From Pseudobdellovibrionaceae bacterium (GTDB lineage Bacteria; Bdellovibrionota; Bdellovibrionia; Bdellovibrionales; Bdellovibrionaceae): a stretch of 64,000 bases of DNA. A model generated the notes under the pieces. It was not told the DNA's origin and searched no databases. It saw nothing but the letters and a program-made list of their open reading frames with translations. A program made the translations under genes and the position numbers. Every line of letters starts with the position of its first letter. The first letter of the stretch is position 1. Below are positions 12,551-20,605 of the stretch, piece after piece. The DNA lies in assembly GCA_022843825.1 (NCBI GenBank), contig JALHMX010000010.1, positions 1 to 64,000 on the forward strand. The letters run 5' to 3'.

Positions 12551-13580
12551 GGGGTGCGGTGGCTGCACTTATTGGAATATTTCTTACGAAGAAGAGTTAG
12601 CCCGCAAAAAAGCGGATCTTACTTCTCAGCTTGCTTTTGAAGTCTTGCCTGTTATTAAAATTCTGCCAGCACCGGCTTTTGATCTACGAATGCGATTCGA
12701 TGTGACTTTAGAAAATGGAAAATTAGGCTTATACTCTAAAAATCATAGCTTAATAGACCTTAATAGTTGTCCAATTTTACATCCAGAATTAGAAAAAGCT
12801 TTTATTGTGTTACGAGAATTTTTGGCAAAAAATCCTTTACCTATAAGTAAGGGCTCTTTACGTCTTCGGTTGTCTAGTGATCTCAAGCATTGGGGATTAT
12901 GGCTAGATTTTTCAAATAAGGATATTAAAAATTTACTAGAGCAAAAAAGTATACTTATAGAATTATCTGAAAAATTTATTATAGAAATTGGTCAGAAGAA
13001 AAAACGGTTGGATCCTAAATCTTTTTCGCTACCGCAGCTTAAATTAATGGATCCTATTCCTTTTTTGTGGTTTAAAACTTTAGAACAAGAATTATTATGT
13101 TCCATATCCAGTTTTACCCAACCCTCTTGGATCACTGCAGATCTGATGACTAAGCAAATGTTGAATTGGTTATCCGATATCCCGTCTAAAAAGATCATGG
13201 AGTACGGTTGCGGTATCGGACAATACACAGTACCCCTTTTAAACCGAGGATATGAGGTTAGCGTTTTTGAATCTGATGAGTCGGCACTTCATTACTTACA
13301 ACTTAATGTGCCACCTCATTTAAATTTCAAAGTTAATCCTGAAGTTACGTCTGATGCTGTGGCCTTAGTTAATCCACCACGATCAGGTTTAAAAGAGTTT
13401 GCGGAAGCCGTTATAAAATCTAACGCTAAATATATTATCTATATTTCCTGTTTTCCTAAAACTTTGGCTATTGATATAGAAAAACTTTCAGAATTTTATA
13501 AAATTATTGATATCACTTTAATTGACCAGTTCGCTAGAACTTCGCACTACGAAACCGCTGTGCTACTTCAGCGTATATAA
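12531..13580 (+). CDS. RNA m5U methyltransferase-like protein (TrmA/RlmD family)
   Basis: SAM-dependent RNA uridine-5-methyltransferase relative, 349 aa. An N-terminal cysteine motif CPHFLKGCGGC fits the iron-sulfur site of RlmD-type enzymes. The Rossmann motif EYGCGIGQY, the NPPRSG motif, a catalytic Cys in ISCFP and a C-terminal Glu in TSHYE complete the family pattern. It lacks an N-terminal TRAM domain and is shorter than the usual 430-450 aa. The ATG at 12531 has GAAGG 8 bases upstream. Its target (tRNA or rRNA) cannot be told. Confidence 0.82.
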   Translation: MCPHFLKGCGGCTYWNISYEEELARKKADLTSQLAFEVLPVIKILPAPAFDLRMRFDVTLENGKLGLYSKNHSLIDLNSCPILHPELEKAFIVLREFLAKNPLPISKGSLRLRLSSDLKHWGLWLDFSNKDIKNLLEQKSILIELSEKFIIEIGQKKKRLDPKSFSLPQLKLMDPIPFLWFKTLEQELLCSISSFTQPSWITADLMTKQMLNWLSDIPSKKIMEYGCGIGQYTVPLLNRGYEVSVFESDESALHYLQLNVPPHLNFKVNPEVTSDAVALVNPPRSGLKEFAEAVIKSNAKYIIYISCFPKTLAIDIEKLSEFYKIIDITLIDQFARTSHYETAVLLQRI

Positions 13581-14111
13581 TGAAGCCTTCGTCAGATAAC
13601 CCGCGATATCTTTTTTAAAGATCAAAGATAAAATTGGAAGTAAAAATATTCCGGTGCAAGTGATCAATAGTACCCGCGCTACGACTTTTAAAACGTAATT
13701 TGACTGCATCCGATCACTAGGTTGTCCTATACGAATGCCGCAACTCCATTCACCGATGGTAGATCCTAAAAAAACTCTTAAAAAAATGAAATACATAATT
13801 GAGATGTACCCAAATAAATAAACGATGGTTTGCTTTAAAGCTGTCGTGTTGAGAAAAGAATTTACAAATTGTTGCATTTGAGTGTTATCAATAGCTTTAA
13901 ACACTAAAGAGGCCCCGATGAGAAACACCAGGGTGCACATGAAAATAATCAGCAAATCTGTAATAACTGATGCTAACAACCAACCAGTTAATTTATACCC
14001 TTTGCGCCGAACCGGTCCGCGATGAAACGCTGAACTTAAATCAGTCTGCTCCACCCACTGTGCGTTCGGTCTAATTTCAAGATCAGATTGTTTATTGGGT
14101 ATAATATCCAT
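13563..14111 (-). CDS. RDD family membrane protein
   Basis: A 182-aa integral membrane protein with about three hydrophobic segments and the RDD-type layout: LRVFLGSTIGEWSCGIRIG in the middle and VVARVLL...KKDIAGYLTKA near the end. RDD proteins are poorly understood; some act in ion or compatible-solute transport. Its 3' end overlaps the convergent methyltransferase gene by 18 bases. A TATAAT on the minus strand only about 7 bases before the ATG suggests a very short leader. Confidence 0.72.
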   Translation of the reverse strand: MDIIPNKQSDLEIRPNAQWVEQTDLSSAFHRGPVRRKGYKLTGWLLASVITDLLIIFMCTLVFLIGASLVFKAIDNTQMQQFVNSFLNTTALKQTIVYLFGYISIMYFIFLRVFLGSTIGEWSCGIRIGQPSDRMQSNYVLKVVARVLLITCTGIFLLPILSLIFKKDIAGYLTKASLYTLK

Positions 14112-14183: not shown

Positions 14184-14612
14184 TTATCTGTCGTCAGTAT
14201 AGCGCGTTTGAGTACAATTTAGCGTAAAATCTTGCACATTTATACGGTCTATATAGATCGCTCCTGCAATATTAAATGAATGCTTAACCCAGCTAACGCC
14301 GTAGCCGCCCTTTTCATCATGACGGTCGGTTTCTTTAATATTATAAACTGCTTTTGTTGCTAAAATGAGAGGCTGCTTTTTTTCATCTATATACACGACC
14401 TCACGAGTATCCATTAAATCGGTCGCTTCTTTTTTTAAGGCTTTGGCCGTTATATTACTAAAATCATGATAAGGGTCAGGTCTAATCGTTAACTCAGTAT
14501 TATCCACCAACAGCGTTTGCTCTTCATCAACACAAGAATATCCATAAGTAACTTTTGCTGCCTGAGCTGAAAATGATCCGATCAAAACTAAAATAACGCC
14601 TAATGATTTCAT
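14184..14612 (-). CDS. Exported protein of unknown function
   Basis: A 142-aa protein with a signal peptide (MKSLGVILVLIGSFSAQA) and AGGAG before the ATG. The mature part looks beta-rich and has two cysteines, one near the N-terminus and one near the C-terminus, that could pair. No family is recognised. Confidence 0.75.
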   Translation of the reverse strand: MKSLGVILVLIGSFSAQAAKVTYGYSCVDEEQTLLVDNTELTIRPDPYHDFSNITAKALKKEATDLMDTREVVYIDEKKQPLILATKAVYNIKETDRHDEKGGYGVSWVKHSFNIAGAIYIDRINVQDFTLNCTQTRYTDDR

Positions 14613-14711: not shown

Positions 14712-14750
14712 TAAAAAATCAGAAGTGTCAAAAAGATGAACACCTCTGAT
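14712..14750 (-). terminator. Rho-independent terminator of the Cys-rich gene pair
   Basis: On the minus strand a stem ATCAGAGGTGT / ACACTTCTGAT with one internal mismatch and an 11-base loop is followed by TTTTTT. It lies 5 bases beyond the stop of the downstream Cys-rich gene. Confidence 0.85.
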
Positions 14751-14754
14751 CATT

Positions 14755-17004
14755 CTAGCGCGTGGTTTTAGAGCTTCCAGAAGTTCCTGCTGGAGGACGC
14801 TCTGGACAATTGATCGCATTGGCCACAACTGTGCCGTCCCAACAGGTGTACTGGGCTGCTGGACACTGTGAAATATTCGTTACAATTGTTACTCCATCAG
14901 CACATACAATATTGGTGTTATTCTGTGAAACTCCACACTGACAGGTATTTAAATTGGTAATGGTTTGACCCGGAGGGCAAGCTGCACAACTACAAGATCC
15001 ATTATGAAATACCAACGGTGCGGCACACTGCACTCCACACGGAGGCACAGAGCCCGTTGGACAATAATCACCAGCAACCTTCAACTTAGGTTGCTTAGGT
15101 TTCCATAAGAAGTACATCGCTGCTATTACGCCAGCGCCAGCAAGCCATGGTAATGCTTTTTCAAAGAAGCTTGCCAATTTATTTTTCTTTTTTGGCGGCT
15201 TCCCGGGAGTGGTTACTTCAACGCTTACGCATTGCTTTATCTCACGACCCTCTTCTATTTTAATTTTACATGACTTACCCGGGCCACAGTCGACATCACA
15301 ATCTTGTGTCGTGACCGGTGGTACAACAGGCTTATCTTTACAGACGAATTTATCGCCTTCTTTTTCACAAGTTTGCTTTGTCGCATCACATGCTGCATTA
15401 CATGTCGTAGGAGCAACTGGCGGCGCTTTAACCTCACACTTAGAACCTGGCGATACTGGTTTTCCATCTGTGCTTGCAGGATCACAAGAACATAACAACG
15501 TGTCTTTATCCAGTTTGCTATCTTTACCTGCGTTTTCACAACTTGGTGTCTGCTCTAGGACTTGAGCAATAAACAAGAATCTTTTGTGCAACTGATCACA
15601 GGCTCCCCAAAAGTTTTTCTCATTCTTATTCATGACCTGAGACGAGCATGAAGCTCGCGCTTTTTTAATATCTTCATTAAAATTAATTTGTATCAACTTA
15701 ATGGCTTCAAATACATCTGCACTTAAGGGATCATTTTTAGTAGTTAACGCTTTCATGCCTTTAAACTGTAAAAGACCATTTATTAAATCTCTTGAAAGTT
15801 TAAAGTTTTCTTTTTCTTGCTCTTGCAAAGCCAATGCCTCAGCCTGATTCGCCGCTGTTTTGTAATAATCTCGGGATTTAATGTTTCCTGCTATATTAAT
15901 CTGATTATTAGTTAAACGACTTTTAGCATCACAAGACTCTCCAGAATCCGCTTGCCACCAGGTCGCCTTTTGAAACTCTGCGGACCGTGAATTAATACAC
16001 GCAGCTTGCCCATTTGGTGTTCCGTAGATGAGCGGATTACAGGCGTAAAAATTAGCCCCTTGATTTTTACATTGGTCATTAGATTTTTTAATCACAGAGT
16101 CCGGATCTTGCTCTAGAATAATATTTTTTATACTACACACACCCTTGTTGGTGTAACGAGAAATATATCCAGCGACTAGACAAGTATTAGTAGTTGGAGT
16201 TGCTGACGTAATCGGCGTCGTCGTTGACGTATCTTCATCATATTCCACTTCTTCGGCCGTTATATTAGATGGCGGTGGGGGGACTTGCGCTTCCGAAGCT
16301 TGAAATATTAAAGAATTCAGCCAAGAGAATTTTTTTCTAGACTTACCTTTTTTTGAATTTACTTTTTCTTGCTCTACTAAAACTTTACGGGACTCCTCCC
16401 ACAAGCTTCGCATGCCAACGATATAATTAGCACGGTCCATAGTTGTCATTTTCGACCAAGCTTGTTTGGTGATTACAGGTAATCCAGTAATTGGTTTTTT
16501 TGTTGCTGTTGCAGGAGTTCTCACTTGCTGATAAAGTTTGGCATCACCGGCTGATAGTTTAACTAACATGTCATCGTAGTTGATCAAATCCACTTCTGTA
16601 AGATTTGTATTATTAAACTTCGCATAGCGCTCAGTCTCTCCGAAAAATTGAACGTTATGTAGTTCGCCATTTTGAGAGATTCTTAAAACTGGATAAATTT
16701 TACCGTCAGATCCTTTAGCTGTATCTACTATAAACTGAGGCATTGCGACTTTTGAAAACTTATTAAAATAAGGCGCTAGCTGCTTTTGTAACCGAGGGGG
16801 ATATTTATTTTTGTTTTTCTTAAAGAATTCTCCGTAGGTCATTGGCTTGTTTAAACCCATTTCAACTATGGCATTTTGCACCATAGCCTTAGAGATTTCT
16901 TGCTGTGCTTTTTCCGCTGCATGACCTTGTGCCACCGGCATCATCACCATTGTAACAACAGACAATTTAGCTAACGACCATCTAATTAAGTTTTTAAAAT
17001 TCAT
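14755..17004 (-). CDS. Large exported Cys-rich protein, paralogue A
   Basis: A 749-aa protein: signal peptide (about 1-29), a domain shared with the upstream paralogue (MTYGEFF, MPQFIVDTAKGSDG, VQFFGE), a segment DRANYIVGMRSLW, a cysteine motif YACNPLIYG, a helical region ending in CDQLHKRFLF, then Cys- and Pro-rich sequence. A membrane helix lies at about 617-634 followed by basic residues, and the final 115 residues are Cys-rich with two C-x-DG-x-V-x-N...CP repeats. The start at 17004 follows AAAGGTGG; an upstream in-frame start overlaps the previous gene. It follows its paralogue by 10 bases, so the two form one operon. Function unknown; surface or envelope role inferred. Confidence 0.85.
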   Translation of the reverse strand: MNFKNLIRWSLAKLSVVTMVMMPVAQGHAAEKAQQEISKAMVQNAIVEMGLNKPMTYGEFFKKNKNKYPPRLQKQLAPYFNKFSKVAMPQFIVDTAKGSDGKIYPVLRISQNGELHNVQFFGETERYAKFNNTNLTEVDLINYDDMLVKLSAGDAKLYQQVRTPATATKKPITGLPVITKQAWSKMTTMDRANYIVGMRSLWEESRKVLVEQEKVNSKKGKSRKKFSWLNSLIFQASEAQVPPPPSNITAEEVEYDEDTSTTTPITSATPTTNTCLVAGYISRYTNKGVCSIKNIILEQDPDSVIKKSNDQCKNQGANFYACNPLIYGTPNGQAACINSRSAEFQKATWWQADSGESCDAKSRLTNNQINIAGNIKSRDYYKTAANQAEALALQEQEKENFKLSRDLINGLLQFKGMKALTTKNDPLSADVFEAIKLIQINFNEDIKKARASCSSQVMNKNEKNFWGACDQLHKRFLFIAQVLEQTPSCENAGKDSKLDKDTLLCSCDPASTDGKPVSPGSKCEVKAPPVAPTTCNAACDATKQTCEKEGDKFVCKDKPVVPPVTTQDCDVDCGPGKSCKIKIEEGREIKQCVSVEVTTPGKPPKKKNKLASFFEKALPWLAGAGVIAAMYFLWKPKQPKLKVAGDYCPTGSVPPCGVQCAAPLVFHNGSCSCAACPPGQTITNLNTCQCGVSQNNTNIVCADGVTIVTNISQCPAAQYTCWDGTVVANAINCPERPPAGTSGSSKTTR

Positions 17005-17014
17005 AATACCACCT

Positions 17015-19762
17015 TTATTGACCTGTTCCGCCCCAGCCGCCGCCGTTTTCATTTGGATTTGTTCCACAGCCGCCCTCTTGAGGTACTGGAGTACAACTGC
17101 AACTGACTGGATTTTGAGTTTGTTCAATCGGTTGCCCACAATTATTTCTTACTATTGGACATGGTCCGCATTGACATTCAAATCCTGCCCATAACTTATC
17201 ACCTTCACACTTACAAACTCCATCAATAATAGTTCTTGGCGGTTCACAAGTAACCACTGGAGTACAATTCGGCGGAGTTCCTGTTGTACCGGCCGGGCAT
17301 ACTGGGCCAGGAGGCACTGGTGGTTTTTTACAATTTGGATATTTTCCAATCGTTCCCTTAGGACATTTCTTCTTGTTAATTAGTAACAAGGCCAAAATCC
17401 CAGCTATTCCTGCGCCGATTCCACCGATAACCCACCAATTAGGTCCTTGATTACACGTGTAACGTTTTCCATCTTCTTGTTTATCAGAGTTATTCTTAGA
17501 CGAAGTAAATATCGCTTTAAAACCTGTATTTACTTTCTTTGGCATTTTTTTAGTGCTATCACCTTTTTTGTTTTTACACATGCAATCGTCATCGAGTTGT
17601 GATCTGAAAGCTTCGTCGTACTGTTCACATTTTTTAACAACTGCTGGGGCCTCACATTTTGTCACCATTGTCTGAATGAAGTCTTCTCCACGCTGCGGAC
17701 CGTAAACGATTCCTGGCTTAGCAATACACTCACATGAATTAAGATTTCCTGCTTCATCGCGATTCTCTTTGAATCCGTCTCTACACGTATCAGTTTCTAC
17801 TTTAATTGGAGCTTCCTCAGCATTACATTTTTCCGGAATGCTTGGATCTAGTCCAAACGGAAACTTCAGCATTTCCTTAGTTTGAGGATTGGTACATCCA
17901 CATGGCAAGTCACCAGCTACTGCATTCAATTTATCAACACCTGTTTTATTTTTTGTTTTTCCAGCAACATTGTTGTTTACTTCATTGCTTAAACTAAACA
18001 AGTACTGCGTCGGCGCAGGACAAGCGTTCTGTCTATATTTAGAAATGAATTGTTCAGCAAACAACCAGCGTCTATGCAGTTGATCACAGGCACCTTGCTG
18101 ATTAGCTTTATCTTTTTGACGCGGATTAAGCGCTGTTTTTTCACAAATTTCTATGGCGCGATTGATTTCTTTCTCAAAACTTTCTTGAGTCTGGACCAAT
18201 AAGTCATCGATCTCTTTATTCCAAGCTGTCTTACCGTCTAATAGTTCAGCCATAGTGCCCTTAGAGTTATGCTTCAGTACGCTATCTAAATACTGCTGAG
18301 TTTTAGCATAAGTGTCTTTAGCCTGATCTTCTTCAATCGCCGCTAACTGTGCATCTCTGTTGGATGCATATTTATTTGCATTACGTAACTTAAATTCATT
18401 AAGTGCGTTATTTGCGTCTTTGGTAAAAGCATCACTGGTTAATGGATTTACAACGTCACAAGGACCACCGAAGTGCGTAGCTTTCTGAGCATTGTTGGTC
18501 GCCGGTCCAGTTCTGCTTCCTGTAGGTGGAAAGCATTTTGTCTTACCACTCTCTAAGTATCCAAAAGTTAAGGGATTACACGCAACTTCATTCGACTTAC
18601 AATCCTTAACAATACTTTGTACGAACTCTTTATCGTAACGATTCGATGTACCTTTACTAATATGAGCGTAGGAACATTTTTTTGCGTCATTTTGCGTAAT
18701 CCAACCTGCATTGATACACTCAAGCGCACCCGGAGTATCTGTTACGATCGGAGATGGAGCAGGGGTAGATCCTCCGCCAGCCGCTCTGGACGGCGGTGTA
18801 GGTTTAGATCCTGCTATTTCACAACCAGCAAAAGGCTTAGCAGCGGTCGGCGGCTGAAACACGTAGTTTTCTCCTGTTTCTTTCGCTTTCTGTGCACAGC
18901 TTTCAGCAGTCCATACATCTGCCCACTTAGGAGAATTAGTGTTCGCCTCAACGTCTTGCCCGAAGAAAACTTTGTACATATTTTCTAAAGATGAAGTTTT
19001 CTTTCGTGGTTTTTTTGAAGGTTGGGAAGCTGGCGACCGTTGCTGATCTGATATAAAATTCACTTTTCGGGCTTCCGTCCAAACCATTCGCATTTGAACT
19101 AAATACTGAGCGCGATCAAACTTCGACATTGACGCCCACATTTGCGGTGTTACACGAGCAAATCCATTGAATGACGAAAATCGACCTTTATTTTTAGTTG
19201 TAGCCTTAGGCTTCATCTCGGTTCTGTAAGTACGGTTTTCAGCTACCGCTGTTTTTGTTACAGCATCGTTATATTGTTTTTTAAGTTTAGAATCGTTATC
19301 GATCAACTTTTGAAAAATTTTAGAAGGTTGGGTAGATTCTGCTTCAGATACAGTTATACCATTAAATTTAAGATAGTTTTTCTCATCACCAAAGATCTGC
19401 ACACTGTGCGTTTTTCCACCGTCAGTAAACGTAATAACGGGAACCTCTTGGCCCTTACTGCCTTTTACTGTTCGCACTTCAAACTGCGGCATTAAGGCTT
19501 TTGGATTTTGCTTAATAAACTCTTCAATTTCGTAATAAGCATATCCTGGATATTCAGCTTTGGTTTTTTCCCAGAACTCTTTCACTGTCATCTTCTTGTT
19601 TAAATTAAGGGCTTGAATCGTAAATTTTAAATCTTGCGCCTTAATATTCTCTGCTTGCTGTCCTAGGGCCACCGGAGAAAACGCCATCGTCATCCACGAA
19701 ATATGTGCCATCGTCCATGTTGCAAATCTTAAGCAGCGCTTAACAAAAAAGTTTTGTTTCAT
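17015..19762 (-). CDS. Large exported Cys-rich protein, paralogue B
   Basis: A 915-aa protein with the same order of parts as paralogue A: signal peptide (about 1-35), MTVKEFWEKTKAEYP, MPQFEVRTVKGSKG, VQIFGDE, then DRAQYLVQMRMVW, EVACNPLTFG, a long helical region and CDQLHRRWLF. A membrane helix lies at about 776-796 (GGIGAGIAGILALLLIN) followed by KKK, then a 116-residue Cys/Pro-rich tail ending in a Gly-rich run. A GGAG before ATG 19762 sets the start. The promoter is probably at 19811-19840. Function unknown; the family is not recognised beyond its paralogue. Confidence 0.85.
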   Translation of the reverse strand: MKQNFFVKRCLRFATWTMAHISWMTMAFSPVALGQQAENIKAQDLKFTIQALNLNKKMTVKEFWEKTKAEYPGYAYYEIEEFIKQNPKALMPQFEVRTVKGSKGQEVPVITFTDGGKTHSVQIFGDEKNYLKFNGITVSEAESTQPSKIFQKLIDNDSKLKKQYNDAVTKTAVAENRTYRTEMKPKATTKNKGRFSSFNGFARVTPQMWASMSKFDRAQYLVQMRMVWTEARKVNFISDQQRSPASQPSKKPRKKTSSLENMYKVFFGQDVEANTNSPKWADVWTAESCAQKAKETGENYVFQPPTAAKPFAGCEIAGSKPTPPSRAAGGGSTPAPSPIVTDTPGALECINAGWITQNDAKKCSYAHISKGTSNRYDKEFVQSIVKDCKSNEVACNPLTFGYLESGKTKCFPPTGSRTGPATNNAQKATHFGGPCDVVNPLTSDAFTKDANNALNEFKLRNANKYASNRDAQLAAIEEDQAKDTYAKTQQYLDSVLKHNSKGTMAELLDGKTAWNKEIDDLLVQTQESFEKEINRAIEICEKTALNPRQKDKANQQGACDQLHRRWLFAEQFISKYRQNACPAPTQYLFSLSNEVNNNVAGKTKNKTGVDKLNAVAGDLPCGCTNPQTKEMLKFPFGLDPSIPEKCNAEEAPIKVETDTCRDGFKENRDEAGNLNSCECIAKPGIVYGPQRGEDFIQTMVTKCEAPAVVKKCEQYDEAFRSQLDDDCMCKNKKGDSTKKMPKKVNTGFKAIFTSSKNNSDKQEDGKRYTCNQGPNWWVIGGIGAGIAGILALLLINKKKCPKGTIGKYPNCKKPPVPPGPVCPAGTTGTPPNCTPVVTCEPPRTIIDGVCKCEGDKLWAGFECQCGPCPIVRNNCGQPIEQTQNPVSCSCTPVPQEGGCGTNPNENGGGWGGTGQ

Positions 19763-19810: not shown

Positions 19811-19840
19811 ATTATAAAAACTTAATACTCATTATGTTAC
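19811..19840 (-). promoter_or_regulatory. Likely promoter of the Cys-rich gene pair
   Basis: On the minus strand a GTAACA -35-like box (19835-19840, 4 of 6) is spaced 18 bases from a perfect TATAAT (19811-19816), about 50 bases upstream of the ATG at 19762. Confidence 0.55.
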
Positions 19841-19872
19841 ATCTCATTTTGAGACATCGAATCAGTATTAAG
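19816..19872 (-). terminator. Terminator-like nested hairpin after the PilZ-like gene
   Basis: On the minus strand a 9-bp stem CTTAATACT / AGTATTAAG encloses a smaller TCTCA-AAA-TGAGA hairpin and is followed by TTTTT. The first arm overlaps the stop codon region of the gene ending at 19868. The stem is AT-rich, so strength is uncertain, and it overlaps the next promoter. Confidence 0.45.
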
Positions 19873-20605
19873 ATCCAGTCTTGGTTCTTAACCAGGACTT
19901 TAATTTACCCACAAACACTTCTTGCCCTGAAGCGAACTCTAGACGAACGTGCTTATCGGTGCTGTCTATAACAGTACAGTTCACTGGCAATGTATGTATT
20001 TCGGTAAATTGTAATTGAACTGTTTCATTCGGTTTTAAGTTTATACTTTCCTGAGTGATAATTCTGCACCCCGTAACAGAAACTGAGTCCGTCAGTAATT
20101 TCATCTGGTTAATTTGTACTTCTGTTTTTAAATTAAACCGTTCAATATTTTTAATCCAATTTGCACGACGATCCAAGTAGGGAAATCGAAAGTAAAAGGC
20201 AATAATGAGAACACCAAAAGTACAAAATAAGGCTAATATAGAAAAAACTTTCAAATACTGTGGAGTGATTGAGCTCATATCGGCATAAAACATACGATAG
20301 GCATTAAGACAAAGTATAAAAAGCAATGTCGCAATGGCAAAAGACCATGACAACTTATGGGGACGGAACAATGAAACCCCAGCTACAAACAACAGAGTTA
20401 ACCACACCCAATCAAAAAGCGGAATAGACTGTAAAAACACAAAGAATATACTTGGTTCATACCAGTTGCTTACACCTGCACCAGCAAAACTTATTAAAAT
20501 ATTTCCTAGTGGCGCAATAATAAAAAGTATAGCTAAAATGTAAACGCCAATGGGCTTCTTAAGGCCAACTTCATTCGATGCCTTAACCGATGTGCGTGAT
20601 GCCAT
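19868..20605 (-). CDS. Membrane protein with degenerate PilZ-like domain
   Basis: A 245-aa protein with four membrane helices in the first 150 residues and a soluble C-terminal domain. The domain begins with RFNLKTEV and carries SVSVTGCRI, resembling the PilZ c-di-GMP-binding pattern RxxxR...(D/N)xSxxG, but the second Arg of the first motif and the Asp/Asn are missing. It may be a non-binding PilZ relative. AAGGAG precedes the ATG. It lies upstream of the Cys-rich pair but is separated from it by a terminator-like hairpin and a promoter. Confidence 0.65.
   Translation of the reverse strand: MASRTSVKASNEVGLKKPIGVYILAILFIIAPLGNILISFAGAGVSNWYEPSIFFVFLQSIPLFDWVWLTLLFVAGVSLFRPHKLSWSFAIATLLFILCLNAYRMFYADMSSITPQYLKVFSILALFCTFGVLIIAFYFRFPYLDRRANWIKNIERFNLKTEVQINQMKLLTDSVSVTGCRIITQESINLKPNETVQLQFTEIHTLPVNCTVIDSTDKHVRLEFASGQEVFVGKLKSWLRTKTGS

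Follow-up and report, generated by a model that had tools for sequence, protein, structure and literature searches.

Two adjacent genes, here called A and B, encode paralogous exported Cys-rich proteins with a single hydrophobic helix, and they represent a protein family that is nearly universal in Bdellovibrionaceae and was duplicated in the genus of the analysed genome. The genes lie in a 64,000-nucleotide stretch of contig JALHMX010000010.1 of a Pseudobdellovibrionaceae bacterium (the window, meaning the whole stretch analysed). Our tentative view is that A and B are scaffolds of the envelope, stapled by disulfides and tethered to the membrane, which would anchor partner structures or assemble them. 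A reading made from the sequence only had placed adjacent genes for proteins of 749 and 915 residues here, in one operon with its own promoter and terminator; both open reading frames were confirmed at their positions and are listed here with the adjacent signals.

14755–17004, minus strand: gene A, exported Cys-rich membrane protein of 749 aa (open reading frame and homology; A clade of the genus in the tree)
17015–19762, minus strand: gene B, paralogue of A, 915 aa, located 5' of A (open reading frame, BLASTP, B clade in the tree)
14712–14751, minus strand: intrinsic terminator after A (folding energy −18.3 kcal/mol, z = −5.2; a run of U follows)
19811–19840, minus strand: weak candidate for a promoter-like site before B (GTAACA-18-TATAAT, not above the shuffle background)

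Gene B is upstream of A at an intergenic distance of 10 nt, and A is preceded by its own AAAGGTGG ribosome site. The single operon was upheld, as was the strong terminator, in which a 12-pair stem 3' of A is followed by UUUUUU. A promoter belonging to B is only plausible: the 105-nt gap upstream of the gene holds a sigma-70-like site matching 10 of 12 positions (19840–19811), and such sites were not commoner than background (18 observed versus 15.9 in shuffled sequences).

The homology of the two proteins was evident from BLASTP (27% identity over nearly 580 residues, E = 2e-48), and the motifs that the sequence-only reading had described as shared were found in both, in consensus form across the aligned homologues. 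A family profile built with A and B included scored them at 722 and 700 bits, respectively, and each displays the family layout of signal peptide, N-terminal domain, six-Cys module, two-Cys helical bundle, hydrophobic helix and tail. The profile search across Bdellovibrionota found members in 61 of the 66 Bdellovibrionaceae genomes, some of these matches covering part of the profile only, and in 51 of the 53 good ones; no characterised family was encountered. Outside Bdellovibrionaceae nearly every match was incomplete, most of them falling in the central part of the profile; one protein with the full layout came from a different family of the order (L089). The first contig scan with A as the query gave no match. 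The earlier failure to recognise a family was borne out, as searches of Pfam, NCBIfam and PHROGs with A and B, and of Pfam and NCBIfam with all 48 homologues, returned weak, chance-like matches only, and the best PDB sequence and profile matches (DotF, E = 0.038; VirB10, E = 0.079) fell on a low-complexity stretch and were not believed. A phage origin of the pair was rejected, tblastn having given no match. An undescribed, near-universal envelope protein restricted to Bdellovibrionaceae is a good place to look for biology specific to this family. The named genomes were taken to be Bdellovibrio exovorus JSS (G002), presumably of the same genus as the window, B. bacteriovorus HD100 (G060) and B. 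bacteriovorus Tiberius (G018), and the window's genus appears to include the surface-feeding predator B. exovorus. The domains of both proteins were assigned as follows.

16915–17004, minus strand: A, signal-peptide-like N terminus with a conserved TMxxxPVAxG motif (alignment of 27–48 homologues)
16510–16914, minus strand: A, N-terminal alpha/beta domain, GLNKxxTxGEF ... MPQF ... KFNN (AlphaFold, alignment identity)
16339–16482, minus strand: A, long helix WxxMTxxxRAxYxxxMRxxW (alignment and AlphaFold)
15529–16203, minus strand: A, six-Cys module (CxVAGY...CNPxxYG...GxPxC) and helical bundle ending CDQLHxRxLF (AlphaFold, Cys conservation)
15094–15168, minus strand: A, single Gly/Ala-rich hydrophobic helix, candidate membrane anchor (hydropathy, conserved position)
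14758–15093, minus strand: A, genus-specific Cys-rich tail with 12 Cys
19661–19762, minus strand: B, signal-peptide-like N terminus, also with the TMxxxPVAxG motif (homologue alignment)
19268–19660, minus strand: B, N-terminal alpha/beta domain (alignment)
18011–18757, minus strand: B, Cys module and helical bundle, as in A (Cys conservation)
17378–17434, minus strand: B, single Gly-rich hydrophobic helix (hydropathy, conserved position)
17018–17377, minus strand: B, Cys-rich tail with 14 Cys

AlphaFold modelled the N-terminal and central domains of A confidently, with a pLDDT of about 90 over most of the N-terminal domain, and the Cys module with its helical bundle, modelled alone, reached a pLDDT of 89 and a pTM of 0.87. 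Comparison of A and the central module with PDB folds gave no credible match (best Foldseek E values of 0.45 and 1.0; best VIA Z scores of 4.3 and 4.2), which would not amount to proof of a new fold; the comparison thus gave no hint of a biochemical activity, which counts against the scaffold reading. The long helix of A is common to other exported Bdellovibrionota proteins. The hydrophobic helix near the C terminus is single, keeps its position in nearly all homologues and is followed by approximately 30 to 180 residues. MYXO-CTERM sorting signals comprise a Cys, a hydrophobic helix and an Arg cluster at the very C terminus; A and B, having 115–120 residues after the helix, do not carry a signal of this type. 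In the A-type copy of G012 (L043:3436-6579), a Pro/Ser/Gly repeat insert of about 300 residues precedes the hydrophobic helix.

In most other genera the family is present as one copy at a conserved locus, usually upstream of an RDD-family gene, and the RDD, TrmA-like, MscS and TtcA-like flanking genes are kept across many genera. In relatives, a gene for a PilZ-domain membrane protein lies just upstream, joined in many genomes by an L,D-transpeptidase gene. Two of these partners flank the pair in the window.

19868–20605, minus strand: membrane protein with a PilZ-like domain (upstream neighbour kept both in this genus and in Bdellovibrio)
13563–14111, minus strand: RDD-family membrane protein (most constant downstream partner)

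A 142-aa exported-looking protein without a family match is encoded between A and the RDD gene (14184–14612); in relatives this position is taken by the RDD gene itself or by another small gene. Within the window's genus, the adjacent A/B pair was present in all 10 genomes with an assembled locus, most other matches in the genus sitting at contig ends. The synteny comparison tied the tandem pair at this locus to the window's genus; in most other genera the gene stands alone and its product lacks the Cys-rich tail. A and B fell into separate clades of the tree with good support, which makes the duplication an old one for this genus. The proposed course of duplication followed by strong divergence was thereby supported, with the proviso that the two copies of G005 and those of G013 are closest to each other, which suggests gene conversion or a second duplication.

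The constancy of the RDD neighbour and the frequency of the PilZ-membrane neighbour would also suit an alternative that we consider unlikely, namely that A and B are inner-membrane type I proteins of a signalling or transport complex with these polytopic partners, their tails being cytoplasmic with metal-binding or reduced Cys. The loss of the PilZ domain in several genus members (L031, L034, L036, L038 and L044), where the upstream protein keeps its membrane part, speaks against such a complex, and in view of the same loss c-di-GMP control through this neighbour was not pressed as a reading.

The cysteine pattern and the helix flanks bear on the same alternative. Eight core Cys are near-invariant, each occurring in at least 45 of the 48 members. 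After the helix, members of the window's genus have 4 to 20 Cys and most other genera 0 to 4; this number is even in 21 of the 21 genus members listed, and the number before the helix is even in most members, although these parity counts, like the C-terminal counts below, come from related sequences and overstate the number of independent events. Even numbers on both sides of the helix suggest that core and tail Cys are disulfide-bonded and that the tail would hence lie outside the cytoplasm. The mean positive charge at the helix flanks is higher on the C-terminal than on the N-terminal side (3.5 versus 2.25), which under the positive-inside rule would make the tail cytoplasmic; this counts for the inner-membrane complex and against the scaffold reading. 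The even tail Cys numbers and their variable spacing weigh in the opposite direction.

The C-terminal ending provided a further indication. A terminal Arg was present in 22, and G-x-R in 16, of the 24 other-genus members, compared with 44 and 1, respectively, of 474 background proteins. A ends in Arg without G-x-R and B in Gln, the motif being usual in the other-genus members only. Some exported relatives that have only the Cys module, without an internal hydrophobic helix, also end in G-x-R; if they are exported, the motif is not cytoplasmic there, which again disfavours an inner-membrane complex. GGVR as a general export tag was rejected, since GGVR-stop occurred 12 times in G060 compared with 10 for a control pattern, and the scan of that genome revealed no further exported protein ending in GGVR.

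The tails themselves were conserved to about the same degree as the folded domains. Within the genus, mean pairwise identity was 0.47 for A tails versus 0.49 for the A N-terminal domain, and 0.38 for B tails versus 0.44 for the B N-terminal domain; the A tail matched solely A-type tails and one B-type tail, all in the genus. Conservation of this kind favours a structured, shared task over diversifying prey-binding tips. The sequence-only reading had offered envelope anchors or adhesins, of which the anchors gained support from the conserved helix and the gene neighbours, and fast-changing prey-binding adhesins did not. It is rather unlikely that the proteins are surface adhesins touching prey directly with the tail as a binding tip. 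The genus-specificity of the tails, the predatory habit of the named relatives and the adhesion-type domains next to off-locus paralogues would be in keeping with such a role; the lack of tail diversification, the single-copy form without a Cys-rich tail in other genera, including Bdellovibrio, and the failure of Pfam, NCBIfam and PHROGs to find any known adhesive domain in A or B run counter to it.

Other exported proteins throughout the phylum Bdellovibrionota contain the Cys module, which merits a separate family entry. It is joined, in a protein from a different family of the phylum, to a YkuD L,D-transpeptidase domain (L099:1911-3890; E = 1.4e-4, just below Pfam's cut-off, the HGT...NGCLSL motif having been read by eye), and in L097, as judged by eye only, to a cysteine-peptidase-like domain. 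Along with the L,D-transpeptidase gene that many relatives have next to the PilZ gene, these fusions raise a further, quite unlikely alternative, in which A and B would be accessories of cell-wall remodelling, with a peptidoglycan-binding Cys module that controls L,D-transpeptidases or endopeptidases or recruits them. Just one of the fusions is clear, the window locus has no L,D-transpeptidase neighbour, and no known sugar-binding fold was found. The YkuD enzymes resemble A and B in that one fusion protein has the Cys module and that a locus is often shared; their catalytic domain is absent from A and B (Pfam). In the scaffold reading, the presumed link of the family with the cell wall derives from the one clear fusion and the neighbour genes, which weighs against that reading.

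Off-locus paralogues were found beside surface-type proteins. In four genomes from three genera (L091:2158-5205, L114:5115-8132, L155:3792-6476 and L156:3265-5867), a short family member follows directly downstream of a gene for an RCC1/Calx-beta exported protein, within about 20 nt, and these partner proteins are 40–77% identical to each other. In a fifth genome (L089), an off-locus paralogue stands between FN3/Ig-like and TSP1 genes. The pairing lends a role as partner or anchor of surface structures the best support among the readings, but the RCC1-linked paralogues form a separate subfamily and A and B lack a neighbour of this kind, points that weigh against the scaffold reading. The features newly described here are the core Cys, the Cys parity, the G-x-Arg ending, the phylum-wide Cys module and the paralogues beside surface-type proteins.

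In the scaffold reading, A and B would be exported by Sec, stapled by disulfides and held by one hydrophobic helix; their N-terminal and Cys-module domains would reside in the envelope, probably at the wall. The mostly single-copy core family would act as a membrane-tethered scaffold that holds partner structures or helps to assemble them. At the base of the genus, the gene would have been duplicated and each copy would have gained a Cys-rich, probably extracytoplasmic tail; given this history, the two proteins most likely work jointly, perhaps as a hetero-oligomer.

The single-copy gene of B. bacteriovorus (G060, 1964732-1966474) shares family, locus and domain order with A and B and differs from them in its copy number, in a tail without a Cys-rich part and in its GGVR ending; its presence makes the question testable with existing genetics. 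No paper naming this gene was found, and its number, about Bd2050-2065, is an estimate from average gene spacing with the sole EAL gene of the genome assumed to be Bd1971. Identity with Bd2033, a gene from a predation screen (PMC2797640), is unlikely, the sole EAL gene being 82 kb away. The MAT fibre proteins of B. bacteriovorus resemble A and B as large exported proteins with a candidate surface function; they are homologous to phage tail fibres and carry S74 or related parts (PMC10769870), and no phage tail fibre or S74 match was found in A or B (Pfam, NCBIfam, PHROGs). The MIDAS-family adhesin Bd0875 (PMC11003981) is likewise a large predator envelope protein; unlike it, neither A, B nor the 46 homologues matched a von Willebrand A domain. 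In B. exovorus, a fixed-size feeding junction clamping the prey has been imaged, its protein composition being unidentified (PMC11055950). The duplication and tail gain mark a genus that apparently includes this epibiotic predator, and A and B might, as a duplicated core scaffold with disulfide-rich tails, be structural parts of the junction; we consider this very improbable, as only their lineage and architecture make them candidates.

Other arrangements of the family were also observed. A different genus carries a second tandem pair of family members (L153:4935-8197), the second of which lacks the Cys module, and this pair stands behind a third gene for an exported protein. At L152:5331-8531, two neighbouring Cys-module proteins are encoded directly downstream of a lon protease gene.
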